From contig NZ_CP107996.1 in NCBI RefSeq assembly GCF_036088315.1, positions 5,291,501 through 5,355,500 on the forward strand: a stretch of DNA of 64,000 nucleotides, written 5' to 3'. This DNA comes from Streptomyces sp. NBC_00344 (GTDB lineage Bacteria > Actinomycetota > Actinomycetes > Streptomycetales > Streptomycetaceae). Numbering within the stretch: position 1 is the first letter of the stretch; every line of letters starts with the position of its first letter. A program made the position numbers and the translations under genes. Positions 29,784 through 42,846 of this stretch are shown in pieces. A model generated the notes under the pieces. The model worked only from the letters and a program-made list of their open reading frames with translations, was not told the DNA's origin and did no database searches.

Positions 29784-30623
29784 TCAGCGGCCGCCCCGCC
29801 GGGACAGCTCCAGCGTGCGCCGGGCGCCCGCCACCACAGCGGCATCCACGAAACGCCCGTCCGCGAGCGCCAGCGCACCCGCGTCGCCGGCCGCCGCCAG
29901 CACGATGTCCTCCGCCGCGCTGACCTCCTCCCGGCTCGGCAGATAGGCCTGCTCGATCACCGGCAGCTGGGCCGGGTGAATAGCCGCGCGCCCCAGGAAT
30001 CCGAGTGCCCGGCCCCTGGCGCAGGACGCGGCAAGGCCGTCCAGATCCCGCACATCGGGGAAGACCGACTGCGCGGGCGGGGCCAGACCCGCCGCCCGCG
30101 CGGCGATCACCGCACGGCTGCGCGGCCAGGCGAGACCCGCCTCGTCCAGCACACCCAGATCGGCGCGGAGGTCCGCCTCGCCGAGGGCCAGGCCGCATAC
30201 CGTCGGGGTCGCCGTGGCGATCTCGTAGGCGCGCTCCACCCCCAGCGCCGACTCCAGTATCGGGAAGAGCGGCAGATCCGCCCGCCCGCCGGCCGCGGCC
30301 CAGCCGGCGACCCCGCGCACCTCGGCGGCGCCGCCGGCCTTGGGCAGCCGCAGCCCGGCCAGACCGGGCAGGGCCGCGAGCGCGCGGACATCGTCCTGGG
30401 CGAGGGGCCCGTCCAGTGCGTTGATCCGCACATGCACCGGGGAGGGCCCGGGAACGGGGTCGGAGAGGAGTTCGGCAGTGGCCTCACGGGCGTATGCCTT
30501 GCGGTCGGGGGCGACCGCGTCCTCCAGGTCGACCAGTACCACATCGGCGCCGCTGTGCAGCGCCTTCGCGACCACCTCCGGCCGGTCACCCGGCACATAC
30601 AGCCAGGTCAGTACCGTGTTCAC
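29784..30623 (-). CDS. CitE-like HpcH/HpaI aldolase family CoA-ester lyase
   Basis: A 279-residue (beta/alpha)8 protein of the citrate lyase beta/malyl-CoA lyase group. It shows YVPGDRPEVVAKAL, the acidic pair in LVDLEDAVAPDRK, the Arg in VRINALDG, LPKAGG, the metal-ligand Glu in LESALGVERAYEI, and ALGEADLRADLG. Members split or form CoA-esters such as malyl-CoA or citramalyl-CoA. It is the last gene of the 11-gene operon and overlaps the CoA-transferase by 4 bases. Substrate not determined. Confidence 0.88.
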   Translation of the reverse strand: MNTVLTWLYVPGDRPEVVAKALHSGADVVLVDLEDAVAPDRKAYAREATAELLSDPVPGPSPVHVRINALDGPLAQDDVRALAALPGLAGLRLPKAGGAAEVRGVAGWAAAGGRADLPLFPILESALGVERAYEIATATPTVCGLALGEADLRADLGVLDEAGLAWPRSRAVIAARAAGLAPPAQSVFPDVRDLDGLAASCARGRALGFLGRAAIHPAQLPVIEQAYLPSREEVSAAEDIVLAAAGDAGALALADGRFVDAAVVAGARRTLELSRRGGR

Positions 30624-31852
30624 CGGACCGTCCCGGACTCACGGAGAGCGGCGATGTCCGAGGTGTCCAGGCCGAGCCCGGAAAGCACCTCATCGGTGTC
30701 GGCGCCGTGCGGCCGGCCCGCCCATCGGATGGCGCCGGGCGTCCCGGAGAGCCGGAACAGCACGTTCTGCATCCGGACGGTGCCCAGTTCCTCGTCCGGC
30801 ACCTCGGCGAAGGTGCCCAGCGCGCGGTACTGCGGATCCTCCATCGCGTCGGCGATGTCGTAGACCGGGGCGATGGCGGCCTGCGCTTCCTCGAAGGCCG
30901 CCATCACCTCCGCCCTGTCGTGCCGGGCGATCCATCCGCTGACCGCCTCGTCCAGCTCGTCGGCGTGCCGGGCGCGCTGCGCACCGGAGGCGAACCACGG
31001 CTCATCGATGACGTCGGGGCGTCCCACCAGCCGCATCACCCGCTCCGCGATCGACTGGGCGGACGTCGACACGGCGACCCACTTGCCGTCGCGTGTGCGG
31101 TAGGTGTTCCGCGGGGCGTTGTTGTTGGAGCGGTTGCCGGTGCGCGGCTGCACATAGCCGAGCTGGTCGTACCAGATGGCCTGCGGCCCGAGCACCGCGA
31201 GCATCGGCTCGATGATCGCCATGTCGACGATCTGCCCCTGCCCGGTCCTGTCCCGGCCGGTGAGCGCGGCCATCACGGCGTACGCGGTGGCGAGCGCGGC
31301 GACCGAGTCGGCCAGTCCGAAGGGCGGCAGGGTGGGCGGGCCGTCGGGCTCGCCGGTCATCGCCGCGAAGCCGCTCATGGCCTCGGCGAGGGTGCCGAAT
31401 CCCGGACGTCGCGCATAGGGACCGAACTGGCCGAAGCCCGTCACCCTGGCCAGCACCAGTCGCGGGTTCGCCTCGGACAGCCGGTCCCAGCCCAGACCCC
31501 ACTTCTCCAGGGTGCCGGGACGGAAGTTCTCGATGATCACATCGGCATCGGCGGCGAGCCGGAGCAGCACATCACGGCCACCGGGTGTGGACAGATCGAG
31601 CGTGATGGTGCGCTTGTTCCTGCCCAGCAGCTTCCACCACAGACCGATCCCGTCCTTGCTCGGGCCGTGGCCGCGCGAGGGGTCGGGCCGGTCCGGGTGC
31701 TCGACCTTGACGACATCGGCGCCGAAGTCGCCGAGCAGGGTGGCGGCCAGCGGGCCCGCGAAGAGCGTGGCGAGATCGAGCACCCGCATCCCCTCGAGGG
31801 GAGCCGGCGCCCGGCTGCCTGCCGGGATGTCCTTCGGTTCGTCGTCAGTCAT
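30620..31852 (-). CDS. Family III CoA-transferase (CaiB/BaiF)
   Basis: A 410-residue family III CoA-transferase. It opens with LEGMRVLDLATLFAGPLAATLLGDFGADVVKVEHP, the nucleotide-binding entry of the family. The catalytic aspartate is likely the one in GQIVDMAIIEPM. GYVQPRTGNRSNN and VSTSAQSIAERVMRLVG are typical. It overlaps the ribokinase and CitE-like genes by 4 bases. Together with the CitE-like enzyme it suggests activation of an acid to its CoA ester followed by C-C cleavage. Confidence 0.9.
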   Translation of the reverse strand: MTDDEPKDIPAGSRAPAPLEGMRVLDLATLFAGPLAATLLGDFGADVVKVEHPDRPDPSRGHGPSKDGIGLWWKLLGRNKRTITLDLSTPGGRDVLLRLAADADVIIENFRPGTLEKWGLGWDRLSEANPRLVLARVTGFGQFGPYARRPGFGTLAEAMSGFAAMTGEPDGPPTLPPFGLADSVAALATAYAVMAALTGRDRTGQGQIVDMAIIEPMLAVLGPQAIWYDQLGYVQPRTGNRSNNNAPRNTYRTRDGKWVAVSTSAQSIAERVMRLVGRPDVIDEPWFASGAQRARHADELDEAVSGWIARHDRAEVMAAFEEAQAAIAPVYDIADAMEDPQYRALGTFAEVPDEELGTVRMQNVLFRLSGTPGAIRWAGRPHGADTDEVLSGLGLDTSDIAALRESGTVR

Positions 31853-32769
31853 CGGGTGTTCCTCACGTACAGTGCGTCGATCTCGGTTCGATGGGGCATG
31901 GAGGCACCGGCTCCGGGACGCTGCACACTCAGCGCGGAGGCGGCCGACGCCCAGGCCATCGCCTCCAGGACCGGCCGCCCCTCGCCGACGGCGACAGCCA
32001 GGGCCCCGACGAAGGTGTCCCCCGCCGCGGTGGTGTCCACCGCCCGCACCGGCAGTGCGGGCACGGTCACCGGGCCGGTGCCACGGGCCGCGTGCAGACT
32101 CCCCGCCGCACCCAGGGTGACGACGACCTCGGGAACCAGGTCGAGCAGCGCGGTGGCCGCACGGTGCGGGTCCCCGCAGCCGGTGAGCGCCGCGGCCTCG
32201 TGCTCGTTGGGCACCAACAGGTCGGTGAGCGACAGGAGTTCATCGGGCAGCTGCTGCGCGGGGGCGGGTGTCAGGACGGTACGCACACCGTTCGCGCGGG
32301 CCGAACGGGCGCCCGCGAGCACTCCGGACATGGGCAGTTCGAGCTGGAGCAGCAGTGCTCCGGACGCGCCGATCCTGGCCTCGTCGCCGTCCGCGAGGGC
32401 GGTGACCGTGCCATTGGCGCCGGGGACCACCACGATCGCGTTGCCGCCCTCGTCGTCGACCACGATGTGCGCGGTGCCGCTCGGGCCCTGCACGGTCCGC
32501 AACCCGGAGATCTCCACACCGGATTCGGCCAGCGCGGTGCGCAGCCGGTCTCCGAAACCGTCGTCGCCTACGGCGCCGATCATGGTGACCCTGCCACCCG
32601 CCCGGGCCGCGGCCACCGCCTGGTTGGCACCCTTGCCGCCGGGAACCGTACGGAACTCCCGTCCCGTCACGGTCTCCCCGCGCCGGGGCGCCGTGGCGAC
32701 GTACGCCACCAGATCCATGTTGGTGGAGCCCAGCACGGTCAGCGTGGCGGCTGATGGTTCCCCGCTCAT
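31849..32769 (-). CDS. PfkB-family carbohydrate kinase, ribokinase-like
   Basis: A 306-residue kinase of the ribokinase family. It has the substrate motif LGSTNMDLVAYV, the PfkB signature GGKGANQAVAAARAGG, the nucleotide region VTLGAAGS, and the anion hole with catalytic Asp in DTTAAGDTF. The overall order is closest to RbsK, so D-ribose is the natural first guess. It overlaps the ADP-ribosylglycohydrolase at 34187 by 4 bases, which ties ribose phosphorylation to that family. Confidence 0.9.
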   Translation of the reverse strand: MSGEPSAATLTVLGSTNMDLVAYVATAPRRGETVTGREFRTVPGGKGANQAVAAARAGGRVTMIGAVGDDGFGDRLRTALAESGVEISGLRTVQGPSGTAHIVVDDEGGNAIVVVPGANGTVTALADGDEARIGASGALLLQLELPMSGVLAGARSARANGVRTVLTPAPAQQLPDELLSLTDLLVPNEHEAAALTGCGDPHRAATALLDLVPEVVVTLGAAGSLHAARGTGPVTVPALPVRAVDTTAAGDTFVGALAVAVGEGRPVLEAMAWASAASALSVQRPGAGASMPHRTEIDALYVRNTR

Positions 32770-34187
32770 GTCCTCGCGTCCCCTCCGCCGGCGTGGCGCA
32801 GGGTGCGCTCGGCCAGCTCGTCGAAACCGATACCGTCCAGACCACCGACCGTGGTGGCCAGCCGATTCCTCAACGGCTTCGTCCAGCGCTCGGGTACGGC
32901 CTGCGGGCCGCCCGCGAGGAGACCCGCCACGCTGCCTGCCGTCGCACCGTTGGAGTCGGTGTCCCAGCCGCCGGACACCGCACGGCAGATGGACCCGGTG
33001 AAGTCGCCGTCCGCATGGGTCAGCGCCGCGGCCAGCAGCGCCGCGTTCGGCAGCACATGCACCCAGTGGTGGTCCCCGTACGCCGTGTGCAACTCGTCCA
33101 CCACCGACTCGAACCCCCCGGCGGTGCCCAGCGGTTCCGCGACAGCCCGCTCGATACCGAACCGCACGGCGGCCGCGAAGCGGGAGCGGGGCGGTACGAC
33201 GCGCAGACCGGCCCGCAGCGCGCCGTGCACGTCGCACTGCCCGCCCGCGGCGGCCGCGATCACCGCAGCGGCGAACATCTCGCCGTACACACCGTTCGCC
33301 GTATGGGTGAGGACCGCGTCCCGCCAGGCGGCGGACGCGGCCCTTGCCGGATCGCCCGGGTTGGTCCAGCCAAAGATGTCCGCCCTGATCTGCGCGCCGA
33401 TCCACTCGCGGAACGGATTGCGGTACACCGCACTGTCCGGTGGCTCGATCCCGCAGAGCAGATTGCGGTACGCGGCCCGCTCGGCCGTGAAGGTACGCCC
33501 GGCCGGCAGCTCGTCCAGCCAGAGCTGCGCCACATCGGCGGTGGTGAAGCCGGGGCCGTAGCGGTCGAGCAGCAACAGACCGAGCAGCGGGTAGTTGAGG
33601 TCGTCGTCCTCGGGCGCGCCGTCGATGTTCTCGGCGAGCGAAGTGGGACGCGAGCGGCGGTTCCACGGATGTGCGGCGGCGATCTCCGGATCGAGACCTG
33701 ACGCGGTGAACCAGTTGTCCAGAGGCCAGTTGCCGGTGGAGCGGGCGATGGCCCTGATGCCGCTCAGGGTGAGCTTCTCGACCGGCTTGCCGAGCACGCA
33801 GCCGGCTGCGCGGCCCAGCCAGGACGCCTCCAGACGGCTGCGCAGCGCCTCCTGGCCGGCGGCGGCCCGGTGGACCGGCGCGGGCCAGTCGGCGCACCGG
33901 GAGCGGATGTCGTCGAGCCCGGTGGGCTCGTCCGCGGCCAGCGGGGACGCTACGGCGGCCAGTTCGTCCAGGATTTCTCCAGCGATGCGACGCAGCTCGG
34001 GGTCGGCGGGCCCGGGCGACGCACCGGCCCGCCCGGGGGCCGGATGGCCTCCGGCGGCCGTCCAGCGGCGCTCCGCCTCCGTCGTGTCACGCCCGTCCTG
34101 CGCGGCCTGGCGCAGTTCGTGGCCCACCAGATCCTCGGGCTGCACCCAGGTCAGCCGCAGCGGGCCGCCCGCACCGGGGGCCGTCAT
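32766..34187 (-). CDS. ADP-ribosylglycohydrolase family protein 1 (N-terminally extended)
   Basis: A 473-residue member of the DraG/ARH1 fold starting at ATG 34187. About 115 residues at the N-terminus precede the fold entry SWLGRAAGCVLGKPVEK. The metal-site motif that is usually TDDT is EDDD (193-196) in APEDDDLNYPLLG. The second motif is DTDS (409-412) in SGGWDTDSNGATAGSVAG. All metal-binding acids are therefore kept. It is the fourth of four paralogues in the operon and the least like the others. It may cleave a ribosyl bond, but the substrate is unknown. Confidence 0.88.
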   Translation of the reverse strand: MTAPGAGGPLRLTWVQPEDLVGHELRQAAQDGRDTTEAERRWTAAGGHPAPGRAGASPGPADPELRRIAGEILDELAAVASPLAADEPTGLDDIRSRCADWPAPVHRAAAGQEALRSRLEASWLGRAAGCVLGKPVEKLTLSGIRAIARSTGNWPLDNWFTASGLDPEIAAAHPWNRRSRPTSLAENIDGAPEDDDLNYPLLGLLLLDRYGPGFTTADVAQLWLDELPAGRTFTAERAAYRNLLCGIEPPDSAVYRNPFREWIGAQIRADIFGWTNPGDPARAASAAWRDAVLTHTANGVYGEMFAAAVIAAAAGGQCDVHGALRAGLRVVPPRSRFAAAVRFGIERAVAEPLGTAGGFESVVDELHTAYGDHHWVHVLPNAALLAAALTHADGDFTGSICRAVSGGWDTDSNGATAGSVAGLLAGGPQAVPERWTKPLRNRLATTVGGLDGIGFDELAERTLRHAGGGDART

Positions 34188-35341
34188 CGGGCACCCGCGA
34201 TGGCACCGAAGAACTCCTCGTGCTCGCGGCGGCGTTCCAGGTCGCGTGCGAACACCTCGCGGGTGACGGTGGCGAGGGCGGTGGCCGGCGCGTGCAGATC
34301 GAGACGGCTGGCGGTGGCCACGTCCGCCGCCCACTCGGTCGGTACCGCGTCCTCGCCGTGCAGCGCACCGATGATCGCGCCGCTCATGGTCGCGATGGAG
34401 TCGCAGTCGCGGCCGTAGTTGACCGAGCCGAGCACGCTCTCACGGAAGTCGCCGCGGCCCGCCAGCAGCATGCCGAGCGCCACCGGCAGCTCCTCGATGG
34501 AGTGCAGTCGCGAGGGCCGCCGGGCGCCGAGCGAGGGCTTGCGGTACTCGGGGCCCACCGTGTCGAACGGGGCCACCGCTTCACGCAGCGGCTTCAGGGC
34601 CGACTCGAATCCCTCGTGCCGCGCGGCGACTTCGCAGACCGCCTCTATCGCGTCCCGGGTGCCGTCCTTCGCCAGCGCCAGCGCATCCGCCACGACGGAG
34701 CCGGGGGTCGCACCCGGCTTGCAGGCCGCGGCGACCGCCGCGGCGAAGACCGCCGCCGCCTCCCGTCCGTAACTGGACTGGTGGGCACCGGCGATGTCGA
34801 GAGCCTCGGCGTAGGCGTTCGCCGGGCTGCCCGCGTTGACCAGGCCGACCGGCGCCATGTACATCGCCGCACCGCAGTTCACGATGTTGCCGACACCCGC
34901 CTCACGCGGATCGATGTGCCCGTAGTGCAGCCGCGCGACGATCCATTTCTCGGCCAGGAAAATCCGCTGCAACGGCAGTGCCTCGGCCTCGAGTTCGGGA
35001 ATCCAGCGGGGTGTTCCCATCAGGTCCGGCACCAGATGATCGGCCACCGCGTAGGCGTCCAGGTGGTCGCGCACCGTTTCGTACACGCGGATCAGCGCGT
35101 GCGTCATCAAGGTGTCGTCGGTGACATGGCCGTCGCCCTTGTGGTACGGCGCGATCGGGCGGGCGGTCCGCCACGCGTCCTTGTAGAAGGGCTCCACGAT
35201 GCCCTGGACCCGGCCACCGTGCCGCTCGCTGATCGCCTCGGGCGTCCAGCCCTCCACCGGGCCGCCCAGGGCGTCCCCGACTGCCGCGCCGATCAGGGCG
35301 CCGGTGGTGCGGTCCTCCAGGGAGTGGTTGGGGACGGTCAT
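34184..35341 (-). CDS. ADP-ribosylglycohydrolase family protein 2
   Basis: A 385-residue DraG/ARH1-fold protein. It enters with GALIGAAVGDALGGPVEGW (residues ~14-32). TDDT is at 74-77, and the second metal motif DCDS at 312-315 lies in NYGRDCDSIATMSG. VPTEW follows as in the family. The metal site looks complete apart from Thr to Ser in the last position. It overlaps its two neighbours by 4 bases each. It is probably an active glycohydrolase with unknown substrate. Confidence 0.9.
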   Translation of the reverse strand: MTVPNHSLEDRTTGALIGAAVGDALGGPVEGWTPEAISERHGGRVQGIVEPFYKDAWRTARPIAPYHKGDGHVTDDTLMTHALIRVYETVRDHLDAYAVADHLVPDLMGTPRWIPELEAEALPLQRIFLAEKWIVARLHYGHIDPREAGVGNIVNCGAAMYMAPVGLVNAGSPANAYAEALDIAGAHQSSYGREAAAVFAAAVAAACKPGATPGSVVADALALAKDGTRDAIEAVCEVAARHEGFESALKPLREAVAPFDTVGPEYRKPSLGARRPSRLHSIEELPVALGMLLAGRGDFRESVLGSVNYGRDCDSIATMSGAIIGALHGEDAVPTEWAADVATASRLDLHAPATALATVTREVFARDLERRREHEEFFGAIAGAR

Positions 35342-36543
35342 GATCGGGTTCCTTCCGGCGAAGCTGGCAGACGAACGGAGAGATGTGAGGAGAGCTCGGC
35401 GGCGACCTCGACGAGGTCGGTGCCGGCGAGTTGGGGCAGGGCGCAGCCGACCAGAGTGCGGCAGCTGTCCCGCCAGGTGGCCGGCAGCGCACCGGCCCCC
35501 GACACCGCGCCGGTGAGGGCGCCCGCCAGGGCAGGCGCGGAGTCGGCGACCCGCGAGAGGCAGGCGGCGGCGGGCACCGCTTCGGCCAGGGAGCCACCGG
35601 CCGCGAGAGCCATCGCCAGCGCGACGGGGACCGTCTCGGCCGCGGCGATCCCGTAGCTGTAGACATGGTCGACGATCTCGTGTTCCAGCACCGGGACCAG
35701 CTCGAACGCGCTGCCCGGCTGACCCGGTCTGGCAGCCGTCGCGGTGCGCGCCAGCGCCACCGCGTGCACGGCGTTGCGCCGGATCTCGCTGCCCTCCGGG
35801 AGCTGGGCCAGCGCCTCGTCCACACAGCTCTCCACTGACCCGCCGCCGAGAGCCGCGGAGACCGCCGCCGCCATCGCGCGGGCGCCGTGCACCCCGTCGC
35901 CGTCCTGGGTGTACCGGGCGTCGAACTCGGCGAGATCCGCGGCCGCCGCCGGATCCCCGGGGTGGACCACCGCGAGCACGGTGGCGCGCACACAGGCGGC
36001 GTCGTCGAAGTGATGCGGATTGTCATGACCGGTTGCCGGCGGGCGCAGTCCGGCCGCCAGATTGCCCAGACCGGCGCGCACCGAGATCCGGGCCCGCAGG
36101 GGCATCAGCGCCGACTCGATCTCGTCCACCTGCGCGGAGGCCGCGGCCACCTCGTCGGCGAGCGCGTTCCAGGCCAGCGCCAGCGCCGAGCGCACCCGCT
36201 GCTGCGGTGAGAGATCGCTGTGACCCGACGAGGCGGCGGAAAGCACCGCCTGTGCGGTGAACGTCGCCCACTCGGCGTCGTCCGAAGGGCCCAGCTGGAG
36301 CGGTGCGGGAGGCTGGTTGAGAGCGATCGGCACCGGAAGGGTGGTGGTCGCGTTCTGTTCGGCGAAGGTGTCCAGCTCACGGGTGAGCCTGCGGGTCCAG
36401 TTGGGCAGCAGGGCGGCGCGGTGCCGCCCGGCCGGCCAGCCCGCGGCGTCGCCCGCCGCGATTCCCAGCAGCAGCCCCTCGACGCGGCGGCAGGGGTCGG
36501 ACTCCGGGCGCCCGGTGGTGGAATGGGTCAGTTGTGTCGTCAC
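35338..36543 (-). CDS. ADP-ribosylglycohydrolase family protein 3 (degenerate metal site)
   Basis: A 401-residue member of the family with clear signs of decay at the active site. The entry EGLLLGIAAGDAAGWPAG is recognisable. The first metal motif is SDDAE (87-91) instead of TDDT. The second, normally D-x-D-T/S, reads V-A-D-S at 332-335, so the first Asp is Val. The rest of the fold (LAGALTGAVSGAGALPATW) is intact. It may be a pseudoenzyme that partners one of the other three. It overlaps both neighbours by 4 bases. Confidence 0.82.
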   Translation of the reverse strand: MTTQLTHSTTGRPESDPCRRVEGLLLGIAAGDAAGWPAGRHRAALLPNWTRRLTRELDTFAEQNATTTLPVPIALNQPPAPLQLGPSDDAEWATFTAQAVLSAASSGHSDLSPQQRVRSALALAWNALADEVAAASAQVDEIESALMPLRARISVRAGLGNLAAGLRPPATGHDNPHHFDDAACVRATVLAVVHPGDPAAAADLAEFDARYTQDGDGVHGARAMAAAVSAALGGGSVESCVDEALAQLPEGSEIRRNAVHAVALARTATAARPGQPGSAFELVPVLEHEIVDHVYSYGIAAAETVPVALAMALAAGGSLAEAVPAAACLSRVADSAPALAGALTGAVSGAGALPATWRDSCRTLVGCALPQLAGTDLVEVAAELSSHLSVRLPASPEGTRS

Positions 36544-37643
36544 GACGCGGCCTTCCTGTTGTCGTCCCGCGGAATGAGCCGGTCGGCGATATCGAGGATG
36601 TGGAGCCCGGCCATCGCGGGCAGGCAGCTGCCGCGCACCGGGCCGATGGCGTCGGCCCAGTGGGCCGGAATGCCCGACTCACCGCCCAGCGCCCCGGCGA
36701 GCGAGCCCGCGACGGCAGCCGTGGTGTCGGCGTCGCGGCCCATGTTGACGGCGCTCAGCACGGACGCCGAGAAGTCCCCGCGGGCGGCGATGAACGCGCC
36801 GAATGCCAGACCGACGGCCTCCGGTGCCAGATCGGTCCACGGGTAGCCGCCGATCACCACGGCGGAACGCACCGCGCGCTCGACGGGCAGCGGGGAGCCG
36901 TCGGGCGCCGGCACCGCACGCCGGGCCGCGCTCACCGCGCGGTGCAGCGAACGTGCGGTCCAGGAGTCATCGGGCACCACCGACAGCGCGGCCTGCACCA
37001 CCGCGTCGGGACTGTCGCTCACCATGGCGGCCGCGACTCCCGCGGCGACGGCCTGCCCCCCGTAGATGCCCTCGCCGTCATGACTGACCGTGCCGTCGAC
37101 GGCGACCAGCCTTGCGGCTTCCGCCGGCCGCCCCGTGGCGTACACCCCGAAGGGTGCGGCCCGCATGGCGAGACCGTCGCTCCAGGCGTGCCGGTGCTGG
37201 GCGGAGATGGGCGCGGCGAGGCCTCGTCTGAGGTTCTCCAGGGTGCCGCGCTCGCTGAAGCCCGCACCGCGGAAGGGGCCTTCGTCGCGGTCCGCGATCC
37301 ACAGGTGCCAGGCCGCCTCGACATGCGCGACGGTGAGTGCGGAACCGTGCTCGGCCAGCAGCAGCCCCGAGAAGATCGCGTACTCGGTGTCGTCGGTCCC
37401 GGCCGGCTCGGCCGAGACGAACCCCTCGATACGCCCCCAGCGTTCGCGGATCTGAGACGGTTTCATGTTCTCCGCGGGGGCGCCCAGCGCATCGCCAACG
37501 GCGAGGCCGAGCAGTGCGCCGCGGGCACGGTCCCGCAGCGAACGCGGGACGTCGGCCCGCTCGGACCGGAGCCGGGTCACCGGCTGTCCGTCTGCTTCGG
37601 GGGAGGGTTCGGGGCTGCCGCTCATGGTGCTGATCGTGCTCAT
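36540..37643 (-). CDS. ADP-ribosylglycohydrolase family protein 4
   Basis: A 367-residue canonical family member. It has GALLGLAVGDALGAPAE (~42-58), TDDT at 83-86 and the second metal motif D-A-D-T at 304-307 in NMGRDADTTAAVAG, then GIPAHW. All metal ligands expected from DraG/ARH1 are present. It is the first of the four paralogues after the transporter genes, with a 34-base gap from the SBP gene, the only real gap in the operon. Hydrolysis of a ribosyl N- or O-glycosidic bond is the family reaction. Confidence 0.92.
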   Translation of the reverse strand: MSTISTMSGSPEPSPEADGQPVTRLRSERADVPRSLRDRARGALLGLAVGDALGAPAENMKPSQIRERWGRIEGFVSAEPAGTDDTEYAIFSGLLLAEHGSALTVAHVEAAWHLWIADRDEGPFRGAGFSERGTLENLRRGLAAPISAQHRHAWSDGLAMRAAPFGVYATGRPAEAARLVAVDGTVSHDGEGIYGGQAVAAGVAAAMVSDSPDAVVQAALSVVPDDSWTARSLHRAVSAARRAVPAPDGSPLPVERAVRSAVVIGGYPWTDLAPEAVGLAFGAFIAARGDFSASVLSAVNMGRDADTTAAVAGSLAGALGGESGIPAHWADAIGPVRGSCLPAMAGLHILDIADRLIPRDDNRKAAS

Positions 37644-37677
37644 TTCTGGGGTTGTGCCGGGGCTCGTACGGGGCGCG

Positions 37678-39000
37678 TCAGCGCTGGTACCGGTCGAGGA
37701 CGCGCTGACCGTCGCCGGCGAGCTTGCCGCGCAGCGAATCCGGACCGATCGAGCCGTTGTAGTACTCCTGGAAGGCCGGGGTGGCGATCTTGTCCTTCCA
37801 CTCGGCGTAGCCGCGCACCCCGAGAACGGGGGAGGGGACCAGGTCGCCGGAGATCCTGTTGCCGGTGCGCCAGCCGTTTTTGGTGGTGTTGAGTGCCGGG
37901 TCCTTGAGTGCCGAAGTGCTGTTGGGAAGCAGCCAGTCGCCGAGGGCGAGGCGCGCCGCGTTCCTGCCCTGGGTGAGGAAGGAGATGAAGTCGGCCGCCG
38001 CCTGTTTGTGCTTCGAGTCCTGCGAGACCGAGAGGGTCTGCGGGACGACGCCCTGCTGCCGTCCCTCTGGGCCGCTGCCCGCCGGCATCGGCAGCACCGT
38101 CCAGCCGAAGCCCTTGGGCGCCTGCTGCTGGACCTGCTGCCGGTAGGAGAAGTTCAGCGGCACCATGGCGTACTTGCCGGCGAAGAAGCCGGGCAGGGTG
38201 TCACCGCCGCCCATGCCCAGGCTGCTCTTCGGCGCGGTGTGGTCCTGATTGATCTGACGGTTGATCACCCGCGAGACCGCCGAGTCCGCCGCGCCGAAAC
38301 TCACTTTGTTCTTGCCGTCCACCCGCGCGAAGACGGCGCCGCCGGTGGAGACGGCGCTGTTGACCGACTGGCTCACCGGCTCCTTCATCGACCAGGCCAC
38401 GCCGTACTGCCCGGTCTTTCCGCCCGGGCCCCGCACGGTGAGCTTCTTCGAGGCCTGCTCGAACTCCGCCCAGCTCCACGGGTGGGCGGCTGTCGGGATG
38501 CGCACGCCGGACGCCTTCAGCAGCTTGGTGTTGGCGACCAGCACCCGCGGCTCCTGGAGGAACGGCACGCCGTAGACGCCCTTGCCGAAGGTGGTCATGG
38601 ACCAGGACTGCCGAGGGATGTCCTGCTTCAGCGACCGGGGCAGCCTGCCCCGCAGATCGGCGAGGTAGCCGCCGTACGCGAAGTCGGTGAGGTCGGAGGC
38701 GTCGTCATGGATGATGTCCGGCGCCCGGCCGCCCTCGAACGACGTCAGCAGCTGGTCGTGAATACCGTCCCAGCTGCCCTGGACGTATTTCACCCGGACA
38801 TCGGGGTGGGCCCTGTTCCACTCCGCGACCAGTGCCTTGTTGGCGGCGACGGAGTCCTTCTGCCAGGCCAGGCTGAGGAATTCGAGGGTGACATGGCCCG
38901 AGGAGTCGTCACTTCCGCCGCCGCAACCGGTGACGAAGGTGAGTGCGGCGGCCGCGCCCAGCGCGGGCAGAGCGGTACGGACACGGGTACGGATGCGCAT
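37678..39000 (-). CDS. ABC sugar transporter substrate-binding lipoprotein
   Basis: A 440-residue extracellular solute-binding protein of the carbohydrate uptake 1 (family 1) type. The lipoprotein signal is residues 1-25 with Cys26 in the lipobox VTGC. The mature part begins GGGSDDSSGHVTLEFLSLAW, and it has the ANKALVAEWNRAHPDVRVKYVQG and APDIIHDDASDL regions typical of sugar-binding members. Its start overlaps the stop of the second permease by 1 base. The ligand cannot be read. The ATPase is missing from the operon, as usual for Streptomyces systems that share MsiK. Confidence 0.93.
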   Translation of the reverse strand: MRIRTRVRTALPALGAAAALTFVTGCGGGSDDSSGHVTLEFLSLAWQKDSVAANKALVAEWNRAHPDVRVKYVQGSWDGIHDQLLTSFEGGRAPDIIHDDASDLTDFAYGGYLADLRGRLPRSLKQDIPRQSWSMTTFGKGVYGVPFLQEPRVLVANTKLLKASGVRIPTAAHPWSWAEFEQASKKLTVRGPGGKTGQYGVAWSMKEPVSQSVNSAVSTGGAVFARVDGKNKVSFGAADSAVSRVINRQINQDHTAPKSSLGMGGGDTLPGFFAGKYAMVPLNFSYRQQVQQQAPKGFGWTVLPMPAGSGPEGRQQGVVPQTLSVSQDSKHKQAAADFISFLTQGRNAARLALGDWLLPNSTSALKDPALNTTKNGWRTGNRISGDLVPSPVLGVRGYAEWKDKIATPAFQEYYNGSIGPDSLRGKLAGDGQRVLDRYQR

Positions 39001-39854
39001 CAGCCCTTCACCGCCCCTGCGAGCATGCCGCCGACGAGCCTGCGCTGCAGCAGCGCGAAGAACAGCAGGCTGGGAATCGTGGCGATGACGGAGGCCGCCG
39101 CGAGCGGACCGAGATCCGCTGCGCCCTCCGCACCGGTGAATCGGGTGAGGATCACGGACATCGTCTGGTTCTCCGGGGACTTGAGCAGGACGAGGGCGAA
39201 GAAGAACTCGTTCCACGCGGTGACGAAGGTGAACATCGCCGTGGCCACGAGACCGGGGGTGAGCAGCGGGAGGACCACGCTCACCAGCGTCCGCAGCCGC
39301 CCGGCGCCGTCGACGGCCGCGGCCTCCTCCAGCGTGATCGGCACGGCCTTGACGTATCCCTGGAGCATCCAGAGCGAGAACGGCAGGTTCCAGACCACGT
39401 AGACCGCGACCAGGCCCGCGAGGGAGTCGATCAGATGGAGGTTCTTCAGCACCAGGAACAGCGGGATGATGATCAGCACGAACGGGAACATCTGGCTGAA
39501 CAGAACCCAGCCGTTGGCGGCCCGCGACATCCTGCTGCGGAAGCGCACCAGGGCGTAGGCGGCGGGGACGGCGAGCGCGACCGCGATCACCGTGGCGCTG
39601 CCCGACACGATCAGGCTGTTCAGCGCGGAGTGCAGCAGCGGCTGGGCGTCGAACGCCGCCCTGAAATTGTCCAGCGTCGGATGCCGGGGCAGCCACGTCG
39701 GATCGATGGAACCGAGCTCCCTGGGCGACTTGAACGCGGTGGAGACCAGCCACACCAGCGGGAAGGCCAGGAAGACCAGGTAGCACAGGAGGGCGAGGTA
39801 CTGGCCGGTGCGGCCGGCCGTCCGCCGGGCGCGCAGGCTTGTGGGGACACTCAT
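39000..39854 (-). CDS. ABC sugar transporter permease (MalG type)
   Basis: A 284-residue inner-membrane permease with six membrane segments. The ABC loop is EEAAAVDGAGRLRTLVSVVLPLLTPG. It overlaps the upstream permease by 4 bases (start ATG 39854). It would use the ligand delivered by the downstream SBP. Confidence 0.93.
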   Translation of the reverse strand: MSVPTSLRARRTAGRTGQYLALLCYLVFLAFPLVWLVSTAFKSPRELGSIDPTWLPRHPTLDNFRAAFDAQPLLHSALNSLIVSGSATVIAVALAVPAAYALVRFRSRMSRAANGWVLFSQMFPFVLIIIPLFLVLKNLHLIDSLAGLVAVYVVWNLPFSLWMLQGYVKAVPITLEEAAAVDGAGRLRTLVSVVLPLLTPGLVATAMFTFVTAWNEFFFALVLLKSPENQTMSVILTRFTGAEGAADLGPLAAASVIATIPSLLFFALLQRRLVGGMLAGAVKG

Positions 39855-40810
39855 GCCGTCTCCTCCTTCAGCTTCTTGCGCAGGAACAGGGTGAGGAAGA
39901 CGGCGACGACGGCGACCATCACCAGGCCCATGGCGGCGGCGTAGCCGAACTGGCCGTATTTGAAGGCCTCTTCGTAGGCGAAGAGGCTCGGGAGCCGGGT
40001 CCTGCCGCCGGGGCCGCCCTGCGTCAGCACATAGACCAGGCCGAACGAGTTGAAGTTCCAGATGAAGTTCAGTGCGGTCACGGCGACCACCACCGGCTTG
40101 AGCGCCGGCCAGGTGACGGTGGTGAAGCGGCGCCACATTCCGGCGCCGTCGAGGTTCGCGGCCTCCTTCAGCTCGACCGGAACGTTCTGCAGTCCGGCCA
40201 GAAGTACCACGGTGGTCTGCGGCATGCCCGCCCACACGCCGACCACGATGACGGCCGGAAGTGCGACCGAGAGACTGGTGAGCCAGTCGATGTTCTGGTG
40301 GATCAGATGCAGCTGCGTCAGCGTCTTGTTGAGGATGCCCGCGTCCGGGTGGTAGACGAGGCGCCACATGATGCCGACCACGACCTCGGGCATCGCCCAG
40401 GGGACGAGCGCCAGAGTGCGGGCCAGCCAGCGGAAGCGCAGGTTCTCGTTGAGCAGCAGGGCCAGACCGAGCGCCAGCAGGAACTGCAGCCCGGTGACGC
40501 AGACAGCCCAGATGATGCCGATCCTGAACGACTCCCAGAACAGCGAGTCGTGCCAGATGTCGGTGAAGTTGGCGATACCGGTGAACTGCGTGGGTGATGT
40601 GCGCCCGGCCTGCGAGTCGGTGAACGCGAGCGAGAGACCGTACAGCAGGGGCCCCACGCTGAGCACCAGGACCGGGATCAGTGCGGGGGCCAGCAGGAAC
40701 CATGCGCCCCGGTCCAGGCCCAGGGCGCGTTTGCGCTGCTCGGGGGAGCGGGGCGGCGGGGTGCCGCGGTGGCCCGGGGCCTCATTGCCCCGGGTTGCGG
40801 TGAGACTCAT
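39851..40810 (-). CDS. ABC sugar transporter permease (MalF type)
   Basis: A 319-residue permease with a basic N-terminal cytosolic stretch and six membrane segments. The ABC-coupling loop KEAANLDGAGMWRRFTTVTWPALKP is intact. It overlaps the LacI stop by 4 bases. No ATP-binding gene is found nearby, so a shared ATPase is likely. Confidence 0.93.
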   Translation of the reverse strand: MSLTATRGNEAPGHRGTPPPRSPEQRKRALGLDRGAWFLLAPALIPVLVLSVGPLLYGLSLAFTDSQAGRTSPTQFTGIANFTDIWHDSLFWESFRIGIIWAVCVTGLQFLLALGLALLLNENLRFRWLARTLALVPWAMPEVVVGIMWRLVYHPDAGILNKTLTQLHLIHQNIDWLTSLSVALPAVIVVGVWAGMPQTTVVLLAGLQNVPVELKEAANLDGAGMWRRFTTVTWPALKPVVVAVTALNFIWNFNSFGLVYVLTQGGPGGRTRLPSLFAYEEAFKYGQFGYAAAMGLVMVAVVAVFLTLFLRKKLKEETA

Positions 40811-41844
40811 ACGGACCTCGGCTTCTCCAGGTCGGTCGCCGGCGCGGTCGAGGCGCGTACGACGAGGCGGGGTATGGCGGTGGTGTGCTGGGGCGCCCGG
40901 GGTGCGGGCCCCGTCCCGAGCCGGGCGAGCAGCATCTCGGCCGCCGTTCTGCCGCGCTCGGTCGAACCGAGATCAACGCTGGTGAGCGGCGGCCAGGCGG
41001 CCTGGGCGAAGCTGCTGTCGTCCATCCCCGCGACGGCGATGTCCCCGGGGATCCGCAGACCCCGGGAGTGCAGCGTCCTGACGGCACCGACCGCCAGCAC
41101 GTCGTTGGCGCAGAAGAGCGCGTCCGGCCCGGCGCCGAGCAACTGCTCAGCGGCCGTGGCACCGGCCTCGGTGGAGAACTCCGTGTTCACCACGAGCGCC
41201 TCGTCGTAGGGCAGACCCAGACCGGCGAGTGCCGTGCGGTAGCCGGTCGCGCGGTTGCGCCCGGGCACCGTGTCGAGCGGTCCGTTGACGAAGGCGATCC
41301 GGCGCCTTCCGGTGTCGTACAGGTGCCGCACGGCGAGGGCGACGCCCCGCACCGAGTCGGTGCGGACGCTGTCGACCGGTACGGACTCCGGTACCGAACC
41401 GATGATGACGACGGGGGCCGCCGCCGTGCTCAGCGCCTGGGCATAGGCGTCGGTGACGCGGATGGGGCAGAGGATCAGCCCGTCGCTCGTGCGGTCGCTG
41501 AGGCTGCGGATCACGGCGAGCTCGTCGTCGACGACCGCATCGGTGGAATGCAGCAGAAGCCGGTATCCGGCGGCCCTGGTGACGGCCTGGATCCCGCGGA
41601 CCATCGCGACGTACACCGGGTTGCCGATGTCCTCCATCGCGAAGGTCAGCTGCCGGGTCCTGCCGCCCTTGAGGGACCGGGCGACCGCATTGGGTACGTA
41701 GCCCAGCTCCGCGACCGCCTGTTCGACCTTCTGCACGGTCGCCGGACGCGCGCTCATCCCGTTGAGCACCCGGGAGACGGATGCGATGGAGACCCCTGCA
41801 TGTTCGGCGATCGACACGATGGTCGGTGGCCCGTTCTGCGACAT
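40807..41844 (-). CDS. LacI-family transcriptional regulator
   Basis: A 345-residue regulator starting at ATG 41844. The DNA-binding helix-turn-helix is TIVSIAEHAGVSIASVSRVLNG (residues ~9-30), with hinge-helix residues up to ~60. The rest is a periplasmic-binding-like sugar sensor. It is the first gene of the 11-gene operon and should be autoregulated through the operators just upstream. The inducer is probably the transported ligand or a breakdown product. Confidence 0.93.
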   Translation of the reverse strand: MSQNGPPTIVSIAEHAGVSIASVSRVLNGMSARPATVQKVEQAVAELGYVPNAVARSLKGGRTRQLTFAMEDIGNPVYVAMVRGIQAVTRAAGYRLLLHSTDAVVDDELAVIRSLSDRTSDGLILCPIRVTDAYAQALSTAAAPVVIIGSVPESVPVDSVRTDSVRGVALAVRHLYDTGRRRIAFVNGPLDTVPGRNRATGYRTALAGLGLPYDEALVVNTEFSTEAGATAAEQLLGAGPDALFCANDVLAVGAVRTLHSRGLRIPGDIAVAGMDDSSFAQAAWPPLTSVDLGSTERGRTAAEMLLARLGTGPAPRAPQHTTAIPRLVVRASTAPATDLEKPRSV

Positions 41845-41885: not shown

Positions 41886-41920
41886 CTGTAAAGGTTTTCA
41901 GAAACTGGAAACGTTTACAG
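41886..41920. promoter_or_regulatory. Tandem LacI-type operators upstream of the 11-gene operon
   Basis: Two related elements lie 42-76 bases upstream of the LacI gene. One contains TGTAAAGGTTTTC (from 41887) and the other GGAAACGTTTACAG (41907-41920). The core AAACGTTT is a perfect palindrome with the central CG of LacI-family sites. The first element has AAAGGTTT in the same place. The two elements also form an inverted repeat with each other (12 of 14 positions). Core centres are about 19 bases apart. Confidence 0.6.
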
Positions 41921-42037: not shown

Positions 42038-42066
42038 GGCCTTCCTTGCTGGCGGGAGGCCTTTTT
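42038..42066 (+). terminator. Hairpin with T-run in the VIT gene leader
   Basis: GGCCTTCC (42038-42045) pairs with GGGAGGCC (42054-42061), with an 8-base loop and one G-T pair, followed at once by five Ts. This is an unusual intrinsic-terminator-like structure for this genome. It lies 48 bases before the VIT start with no gene upstream on that strand, so it looks like a leader attenuator or the end of a small RNA. Confidence 0.5.
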
Positions 42067-42114: not shown

Positions 42115-42846
42115 ATGTCCATCATCGAGAACGAGGCGACGCTGCACGAGGCGCATCGCGACAACCACACGCATCGCGACGTCAACGGCGGCTGGCTGCG
42201 CCCGGCGGTCTTCGGGGCGATGGACGGACTGGTCTCCAACCTCGCCCTGATGACCGGGGTGGCGGGCGGTGACGTCACCCACCGCACCATCGTGATCACC
42301 GGACTCGCGGGACTGGCGGCCGGTGCGTTCTCGATGGCCGCGGGGGAGTACACGTCGGTGGCCTCACAGCGCGAGCTGGTCGAGGCCGAGCTGGACGTGG
42401 AGCGGCGGGAGCTGCGCAAGCACCCGATGGACGAGATGCAGGAACTGGCCGCGCTCTACGTGTCCCGGGGTGTCGAACCCGACCTCGCGGCCGCCGTGGC
42501 CGAGCAGCTCTCCAGGGACCCGGAGCAGGCCCTGGAGATCCACGCGAGGGAGGAGCTGGGCATCGACCCGGACGACCTGCCGTCGCCAATGGTCGCCGCG
42601 GTGTCGTCCTTCGGCGCCTTCGCGTTGGGCGCCCTGCTGCCCGTGCTTCCCTATCTGCTCGGCGCCGGCACTCTCTGGCCCGCCCTGCTGCTCGCGCTGG
42701 TCGGGCTCTTCGGCTGTGGCGCCGTGGTGGCGAGGGTCACTGCACGCTCCTGGTGGTACAGCGGGCTCAGGCAGCTGACACTGGGAGGAGCGGCCGCCGG
42801 AATCACGTACGCGCTGGGCGCACTGTTCGGCACCGCCCTGGGGTGA
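42115..42846 (+). CDS. VIT1/CCC1-family iron/manganese transporter
   Basis: A 243-residue membrane protein. The first helix is preceded by LRPAVFGAMDGLVSNLALMTGV, the VIT1/CCC1 entry. AAGAFSMAAGEYTSVASQRELVEAELDVERRE is the signature leading into the charged cytoplasmic helices. Three more membrane segments follow. The family moves Fe2+ or Mn2+ out of the cytosol. The N-terminus carries several His residues (HEAHRDNHTHRD) that could bind metal. Start ATG 42115 has GAGGGG. Confidence 0.9.
   Translation: MSIIENEATLHEAHRDNHTHRDVNGGWLRPAVFGAMDGLVSNLALMTGVAGGDVTHRTIVITGLAGLAAGAFSMAAGEYTSVASQRELVEAELDVERRELRKHPMDEMQELAALYVSRGVEPDLAAAVAEQLSRDPEQALEIHAREELGIDPDDLPSPMVAAVSSFGAFALGALLPVLPYLLGAGTLWPALLLALVGLFGCGAVVARVTARSWWYSGLRQLTLGGAAAGITYALGALFGTALG

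Follow-up and report, generated by a model that had tools for sequence, protein, structure and literature searches.

An eleven-gene Streptomyces operon with four ARH-fold proteins as a candidate pathway for the catabolism of a sugar-hydroxy acid conjugate

What kind of compound would a bacterium handle with an operon that joins a sugar-type importer, four proteins of the ADP-ribosylglycohydrolase (ARH) fold, a ribokinase and a coenzyme A (CoA)-ester module? The question is raised by a 64,000-nucleotide stretch of the genome of Streptomyces sp. NBC_00344 (hereafter the window), the minus strand of which carries, at 29784..41844, eleven genes in the order lacI-permA-permB-sbp-arhA-arhB-arhC-arhD-rbsK-caiB-citE (Table 1). 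Eight of the ten junctions are 4-base overlaps, permB and sbp overlap by one base, and a single 34-base gap lies between sbp and arhA. The coordinates and junctions agree with those of the original prediction, which had been made from the letters of the window, and all eleven proteins exceed the Pfam cut-offs of the families that it had named. It had further proposed the import of a ribosylated or ADP-ribosylated compound that is stripped of its ribosyl group in steps. Of this proposal, a conserved, catabolic-looking unit of importer, ARH-fold proteins, ribokinase and CoA-ester module is supported, whereas the ADP-ribosylated substrate and the four steps are not. Based on comparative genomics, we describe the cluster as conserved and apparently undescribed, and its ARH-fold proteins probably act as glycosidases. 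Our proposal, made with middling confidence, is that the eleven genes serve the catabolism of an imported conjugate in which a furanose, most likely ribose, is joined to a hydroxy acid.

Much of the gene set recurs in distant bacteria, and it is therefore likely that the pathway exists. Of the 296 genomes of the class, 54 gave a match to arhD; 23 of these belong to the genus of the window, and 20 loci, mostly the better matches, were taken from the other 31 (14 from family f89, which is Jiangella-type, three from f87 and one each from f85, f8 and f95). The lacI gene, both permeases and sbp were present in 18 of the 20 loci, while the remaining two end at contig edges; arhA and arhB were present in 17 (one more is cut) and caiB and citE in 19. 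The gene order of the window was kept in most of them, L135 being rearranged and L136 lacking arhA, arhB and rbsK. Because this order recurs in other families, the arrangement is not a matter of chance. A smaller core was found in Alphaproteobacteria and Deinococcota, with identities of 27-31% for arhD and 30-37% for citE in the alphaproteobacterial loci. Nine of 346 genomes, each from the genus of the window, gave strong matches in a phylum-wide search with arhB, and a single further match was weak; this search under-reports, because the arhD loci of other families mostly show arhB-labelled genes at 44-50% identity.

Many of these loci hold a further gene, here called X, which adjoins caiB in 13 of the 20 other-family loci. 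Seven of the 20 carry arhA and arhB only, two X only (one of them cut) and 11 X with arhA/arhB (in one, arhA lies off the contig). Since all 20 other-family loci have either or both, and X was found in none of 61 Streptomyces genomes, it is suggested that X and the arhA-arhB pair may be partly interchangeable. Using five X proteins as the query, 242 relatives were obtained, of which the best 80 were kept, and arhA/arhB were absent from 69 of these 80 loci. The hosts among the best 80 of the 242 include Jiangella, Micromonospora, Amycolatopsis, Pseudonocardia, Oerskovia, Promicromonospora, Prauserella and others, as well as Sphingomonas sp. ERG5 and metagenome-assembled genomes of Devosia, Pelagibacterium, Paracoccaceae, Rhizobiales and Trueperaceae (two). 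In the 66 X loci whose sequence extends at least 8 kb upstream of X and at least 4.5 kb beyond it, citE was found in 66, arhC, arhD and caiB each in 65, lacI in 63, sbp in 61 and rbsK in 60, while arhA and arhB were found in 10. The gene labels of these loci denote tblastn similarity, and the counts do not stand for independent events, because close relatives are over-represented. The structure prediction for X reached a pLDDT of 83.9 from 40 sequences (53.5 from five) and gave an alpha-amylase-type fold; in a profile comparison with solved structures, essentially only a C-terminal formylglycine-enzyme-like part was matched. Judged by the modelled fold, X is probably a glycosidase. The Sphingomonas sp. 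ERG5 locus (L194:123-11956) holds two X-type genes with open reading frames (ORFs) for a PfkB kinase, a CitE-like lyase, a sodium-solute symporter and TonB-receptor-like proteins, and tblastn labelling found no ARH match in it.

Further companions were seen in the X loci. In a Paracoccaceae locus (L191), the arhD protein has an extension whose lectin-like matches are weak and fall below the cut-off, and the arhD ORFs of L190 and L207 are similar to it in length. A gap of 1.3-2.5 kb separates X and caiB in 21 of the 80 X loci. An esterase (PF00756) with a start that reads as a signal peptide occupies this gap in L180, and, judged by eye, similar ORFs are present in L189 and L200. In the Trueperaceae locus L197, an esterase lies beside the cluster. 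The lectin-like stretch and the esterases favour a sugar conjugate as the substrate. Beside the Devosia locus (L207:11997-16614), a fusion of Gfo/Idh and aldo-keto reductase parts and a GH4 glycosidase were also observed.

The four ARH proteins of the operon all match PF03747 (127.6 to 197.2 bits against a cut-off of 26.2). A tree of 54 proteins was built from selected loci, without the alphaproteobacterial arhD proteins. In it, arhA, arhB, arhC and arhD formed separate clades, and arhA and arhB were sisters with modest support (89/69). The binuclear metal motifs and the Glu flap are present in arhA, arhC and arhD of the window. In arhA and arhC, the TDD-type and DxD[TS] motifs and the N-terminal Glu were kept, and the motifs of arhD, including EDDD, were nearly always kept in 60 rows, the clear misfits being one at the first motif and one at the last. 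In arhB, the DD pair is kept, but SRVADS stands where arhA has GRDADT, and no Glu follows GDAAGWPA. The metal-ligand Asp (the first Asp of DxD) and the Glu-flap Glu were lost from arhB in every sequence checked: SRVADS was found in 40 of 41 Streptomyces rows and SRLADS in one, and 16 of 17 rows of other families had ADS without the first Asp, the last being more degenerate (L058 is counted in both lists). Many further positions are near-invariant, which argues that arhB is under selection. It could be an inactive partner of arhA or could have an altered active site, and both are possible.

In the kinase and CoA module, rbsK exceeds the cut-off of the NCBIfam ribokinase equivalog TIGR02152 (305.1 against 299.65 bits), caiB matches PF02515 with 426.2 bits (cut-off 23.3) and citE matches PF03328 with 121.1 bits. 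The site motif of CitE-like lyases is Arg/Glu/Asp, and the residues R66, E124 and D151 of citE were kept in at least 97% of 137 rows. The catalytic residue of family III CoA-transferases is Asp, and caiB has Glu215, which was kept in at least 97% of 136 rows. Among five solved relatives, the aligned column holds Asp in 4ed9 and YfdE, Glu in benzylsuccinate CoA-transferase subunit B and Ser in both succinate-hydroxymethylglutarate CoA-transferase chains, and thus the column is not strict. Both caiB and citE fall below every NCBIfam equivalog cut-off, and malate, citramalate or an acid of the 3-hydroxy-3-methylglutarate type can only be guessed at from the families of the transferase and the lyase. 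Internal stops were met on ORF extension in rbsK of L060 and L064 and in citE of L056, L060, L061 and L086, and are frameshifts or match-merging artefacts.

The situation within Streptomyces was different with respect to the importer. Strong matches to arhB (E <= 6e-119) were found in 88 of 121 genomes, only weak ones in 15 and none in 18 (counted by hand). We took 40 of the 87 other strong loci, picked by rank and contig size, all of which carry arhB by choice of the query. When their gene content was scored using tblastn at 1e-8, arhABCD-rbsK-caiB-citE occurred without lacI and the importer in 27 of them, and six were alike but also without rbsK; three had the full eleven genes, two all but rbsK, one arhABCD only and one arhB-arhC only (L058). 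The eleven-gene form is thus the minority form among these loci, while caiB and citE accompany the ARH genes in 38 of the 40. The original prediction had treated the importer and its regulator as a fixed component; as they are gone from the site in 35 of the 40 loci, the importer was rejected as a fixed part of the pathway.

The binding protein was then sought at E 1e-40 in 36 of the 40 fetched-locus genomes and in four genomes without an arhB match, and was matched in 29 of these 40. Among the 36 arhB genomes, sbp was in the operon in five (in one also elsewhere), elsewhere only in 22 and not matched in nine; the four genomes without arhB had none in two cases, a stand-alone sbp in one and sbp-permB-permA only in one (L138). 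In a tree of 29 binding proteins, the stand-alone Streptomyces copies (94/84) were sister to the Streptomyces operon copies (99/99), with a joint fork of 100/100, and the copies of other families fell outside this pair. In a tree of 39 Streptomyces loci based on arhB, arhC and caiB, the LacI-less L055 lay inside the lacI-bearing group (100/99). The binding-protein tree and the placement of L055 both fit an ancestral operon with an importer that would later have been duplicated or relocated and would in many cases have disappeared from the site. The stand-alone importer may, we infer, serve this pathway. The L138 genes (L138:9963-13089) form a sbp-permB-permA remnant that shares 85-93% identity with the window; it lies at the site between the VIT1-like gene and lgt, and no lacI or ARH matches were found in it.

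In the pathway that we propose, the binding protein and the two permeases would import the conjugate with an ATPase encoded elsewhere, as no ATPase gene is among the eleven. The proteins arhC and arhD, together with arhA and the inactive-looking arhB, possibly as an arhA:arhB complex, would hydrolyse its glycosidic bonds as metal-dependent glycosidases, and outside Streptomyces the amylase-fold X would stand in for arhA/arhB. RbsK would phosphorylate the freed ribose, the CaiB-family protein would add CoA to the acid, and the CitE-like lyase would cleave the CoA ester to an acyl-CoA and an oxo-acid. LacI would repress the operon until an inducer is present. Several observations weigh against this reading. 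In addition to the loss of lacI and the importer from most Streptomyces sites, nine of the 31 searched genomes with an importer-less locus have no binding protein at E 1e-40, and no ARH gene was found beside the stand-alone importer in the three loci read. X was absent from all 61 Streptomyces genomes searched, with a query that does match other loci, and its fold is common to many glycosidases and to the non-enzyme CD98 heavy chain. The reaction of caiB is less sure, because Glu replaces the Asp of 4ed9 and YfdE. Finally, rbsK is missing from 10 of the 40 Streptomyces loci, from L197 and from four loci of the Devosia type (L190-L192, L207), and ribose may therefore not be the sugar everywhere.

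The last point leads to the first of the alternatives, in which the ARH-fold enzymes act on another furanose or on a non-glycosidic bond and the operon is catabolic, with a shifted kinase specificity, and not based on ribose. The missing rbsK genes and the SBP_bac_1 binding protein, which has weak similarity to sugar- and oligosaccharide-binding proteins of solved structure, are in agreement with it. We consider it unlikely, as the kinase exceeds the ribokinase cut-off and the Sphingomonas locus, in which no ARH match was found, also has a PfkB kinase in the vicinity of X.

An ADP-ribosylated or nucleoside-type compound, from which four ARH enzymes would strip the ribose in turn, was the substrate favoured by the original prediction, and the ARH fold, the ribokinase and the fact that the closest solved relatives of arhA are DraG proteins speak for it. 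However, no ADP-ribosyl hydrolase equivalog cut-off was reached by any of the four proteins (at best 77 of 337 bits for DraG TIGR02662 and 56.8 of 490 for Tri1 NF041672), which leaves such a substrate unsupported. When arhA, the only one of the four so aligned, was compared with 2woc, Arg125 stood at the column of DraG Asp97, and at the Glu of the adenine-contacting ExxA motif of DraG it had Ala with an adjoining gap. No phosphatase, nucleotidase or pyrophosphatase family was found in the Pfam results of the eleven proteins. In S. coelicolor, we take SCO2028-SCO2031 to be probable orthologues of the ARH set of the operon, going by the gene order, with SCO2028 and SCO2030 presumably equal to arhA and arhC. 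Both of these proteins were inactive on U-alpha-ADPr, a single substrate, according to the accessible part of PMC13036486, and the role of DraG Asp97 near the metal is treated in the excerpt of PMC7050489 that was available. Four successive hydrolyses are doubtful, because arhB lacks two metal or catalytic positions throughout although it is strongly conserved, and most X loci dispense with arhA/arhB. An ADP-ribose reading as such is unlikely, and the full version with four enzymes in turn is distinctly so.

It could also be argued that the ARH proteins form an intracellular module for the reversal of ADP-ribosylation and that they lie next to metabolic genes with which they have no task in common. 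The importer-less Streptomyces loci would suit such a module, and the many DraG homologues of S. coelicolor are discussed in connection with ADP-ribosylation in the accessible parts of PMC5087735 and PMC9411070. This is very improbable, since the ARH genes are accompanied by caiB and citE in nearly all Streptomyces and other-family loci and in other phyla, and since nearly all of the gene junctions overlap. An alpha-N-riboside such as alpha-ribazole, the cobalamin lower ligand, from which the ARH enzymes would free ribose, is scarcely credible: ARH1 and ARH3 select alpha-1'' linkages (PMC7050489, accessible part) and the arhB-arhC pair of L058 (L058:9587-11892, genome G012) lies just downstream of a nitroreductase plus CobT-like fusion ORF, named by eye as cobalamin lower-ligand genes, but this is a single genome, and caiB, citE, X and the sugar-type importer are left unexplained.

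Returning to the sugar-hydroxy acid conjugate, we tentatively put forward a more far-reaching version, in which the ARH-fold proteins of the operon would be a new class of metal-dependent glycosidases for sugar catabolism, with arhA and arhB as an obligate heteromer exchangeable with X, degrading a ribosyl hydroxy-acid conjugate in several phyla via an unusual CoA-transferase and a CitE-like lyase. If this is true, one branch of the proteins annotated as ADP-ribosylglycohydrolases consists of carbohydrate enzymes. The four ARH genes of the operon, out of eight of this family in the 7.06 Mb genome, would then drop out as candidates for ADP-ribosylation reversal. It would also mean that actinomycetes, Alphaproteobacteria and Deinococcota use a common substrate that awaits a name.

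Regarding regulation, an operator-like near-palindrome lies upstream of lacI in the window (Table 1). Among 82 regions upstream of operon lacI genes, in which some genomes were entered twice, 19 had a perfect 14-base AACGTT-centred palindrome, 15 of them TGGAAACGTTTCCA (raw counts, with no shuffle control). No perfect palindrome of this type was found in the other five lacI-bearing Streptomyces loci, and none of the LacI type within 430 bases 5' of arhA in the 34 LacI-less Streptomyces loci, where one unrelated palindrome was seen (L079). A sigma-70 scan of the region gave no site, such a scan being uninformative for this host. The operon is flanked by a trpA-lgt segment on one side and a VIT1-gltB segment on the other, both named by eye from the ORFs. 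The VIT1-like gene, a metal transporter by its name (window 42115-42846), is a divergent flank, and both it and lgt were in the stretch in 35 of the 40 Streptomyces loci, the exceptions being L049-L052, which bear lacI and lie elsewhere, and L058. That this neighbour is tied to the metal need of the ARH proteins is only a thought. A terminator-like hairpin with a T run was observed at window 42038-42061, between the upstream region of the operon and the VIT1-like gene.

Table 1. Genes and operator-like site of the operon (window positions; aa, amino acids).
Feature	Position	Strand	Evidence and remarks
lacI: LacI/GalR-family regulator, 345 aa	40807..41844	-	Pfam LacI, Peripla_BP_3
permA: ATP-binding cassette (ABC) sugar importer permease (CUT1-like), 319 aa	39851..40810	-	BPD_transp_1; best NCBIfam UgpA/MalF, below cut-off
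permB: ABC sugar importer permease (CUT1-like), 284 aa	39000..39854	-	Pfam; best NCBIfam GlcU/MalG, below cut-off
sbp: solute-binding protein, 440 aa	37678..39000	-	SBP_bac_1
arhA: ARH-fold protein, 367 aa	36540..37643	-	complete metal motifs GDALGAPAE, GTDDTEYA, GRDADT
arhB: ARH-fold paralogue, 401 aa	35338..36543	-	degenerate metal site GDAAGWPAG, GPSDDAEWA, SRVADS; strongly conserved
arhC: ARH-fold protein, 385 aa	34184..35341	-	complete metal motifs; in conserved core
arhD: ARH-fold protein, 473 aa	32766..34187	-	~120 extra N-terminal residues; GCVLGKPVE, EDDD, GWDTDS; conserved core
rbsK: ribokinase, 306 aa	31849..32769	-	TIGR02152
caiB: family III CoA-transferase homologue, 410 aa	30620..31852	-	PF02515; Glu215
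citE: CitE/HpcH-HpaI-like CoA-ester lyase, 279 aa	29784..30623	-	PF03328; Arg66/Glu124/Asp151 kept
LacI-type operator-like near-palindrome TGTAAACGTTTCCA	41906..41919	.	62-75 bases 5' of lacI start; half-site match 6/7

The original prediction knew of no described pathway with this gene set, and our literature search likewise found no description among the matches listed, subscription papers being only partly covered. The nearest likeness in the genus is SCO2028-SCO2031 of S. coelicolor, four consecutively numbered ARH-family genes that the accessible part of PMC9411070 counts among eight uncharacterised DraG/ARH homologues; three of them are among the seven DraG homologues in that of PMC5087735. 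There they are treated as uncharacterised ADP-ribosylation hydrolases, and the operon, importer, kinase and CoA genes are unmentioned in the accessible text. The yegTUV operon of E. coli (regulator GgaR/YegW) also combines a transporter, an ARH-family protein and a sugar kinase, and its functions are called unknown in the part of PMC10819704 that was accessible. However, it has a nucleoside-type transporter of the major facilitator superfamily, a GntR regulator, one ARH protein and no CoA genes, where the operon of the window has an ABC importer and four ARH proteins. YegU shares 26% identity over 356 aa with arhC; a different ARH gene of the window genome (L002) shares 35% over 326 aa with it, above any gene of the operon. 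With DraG, ARH1 and ARH3, the residue roles of which are covered for ARH and DraG in the available part of PMC7050489 and which for ARH3 are also the concern of PMC8319183 as far as its text was accessible, the operon proteins share the Pfam family, and in arhA, arhC and arhD the conserved metal motifs, but they miss the specific cut-offs, arhA is without the DraG Asp97 and the genes are in an operon of the sugar-uptake type.

In the itaconate degradation pathway, a CoA-transferase gene is next to a CitE-like lyase gene, and citE reaches 163.1 bits against RipC NF038242; this is under the 375-bit cut-off, and no hydratase is among the eleven genes. Actinomycete sugar-utilisation operons have a LacI-controlled ABC importer plus a glycosidase, and the order of LacI, two permeases and a binding protein, followed by hydrolases and a sugar kinase, corresponds well to that of the window. 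They differ in that the hydrolases of the window are ARH-fold and not classical glycoside hydrolases, and in that a CoA-ester module is attached.

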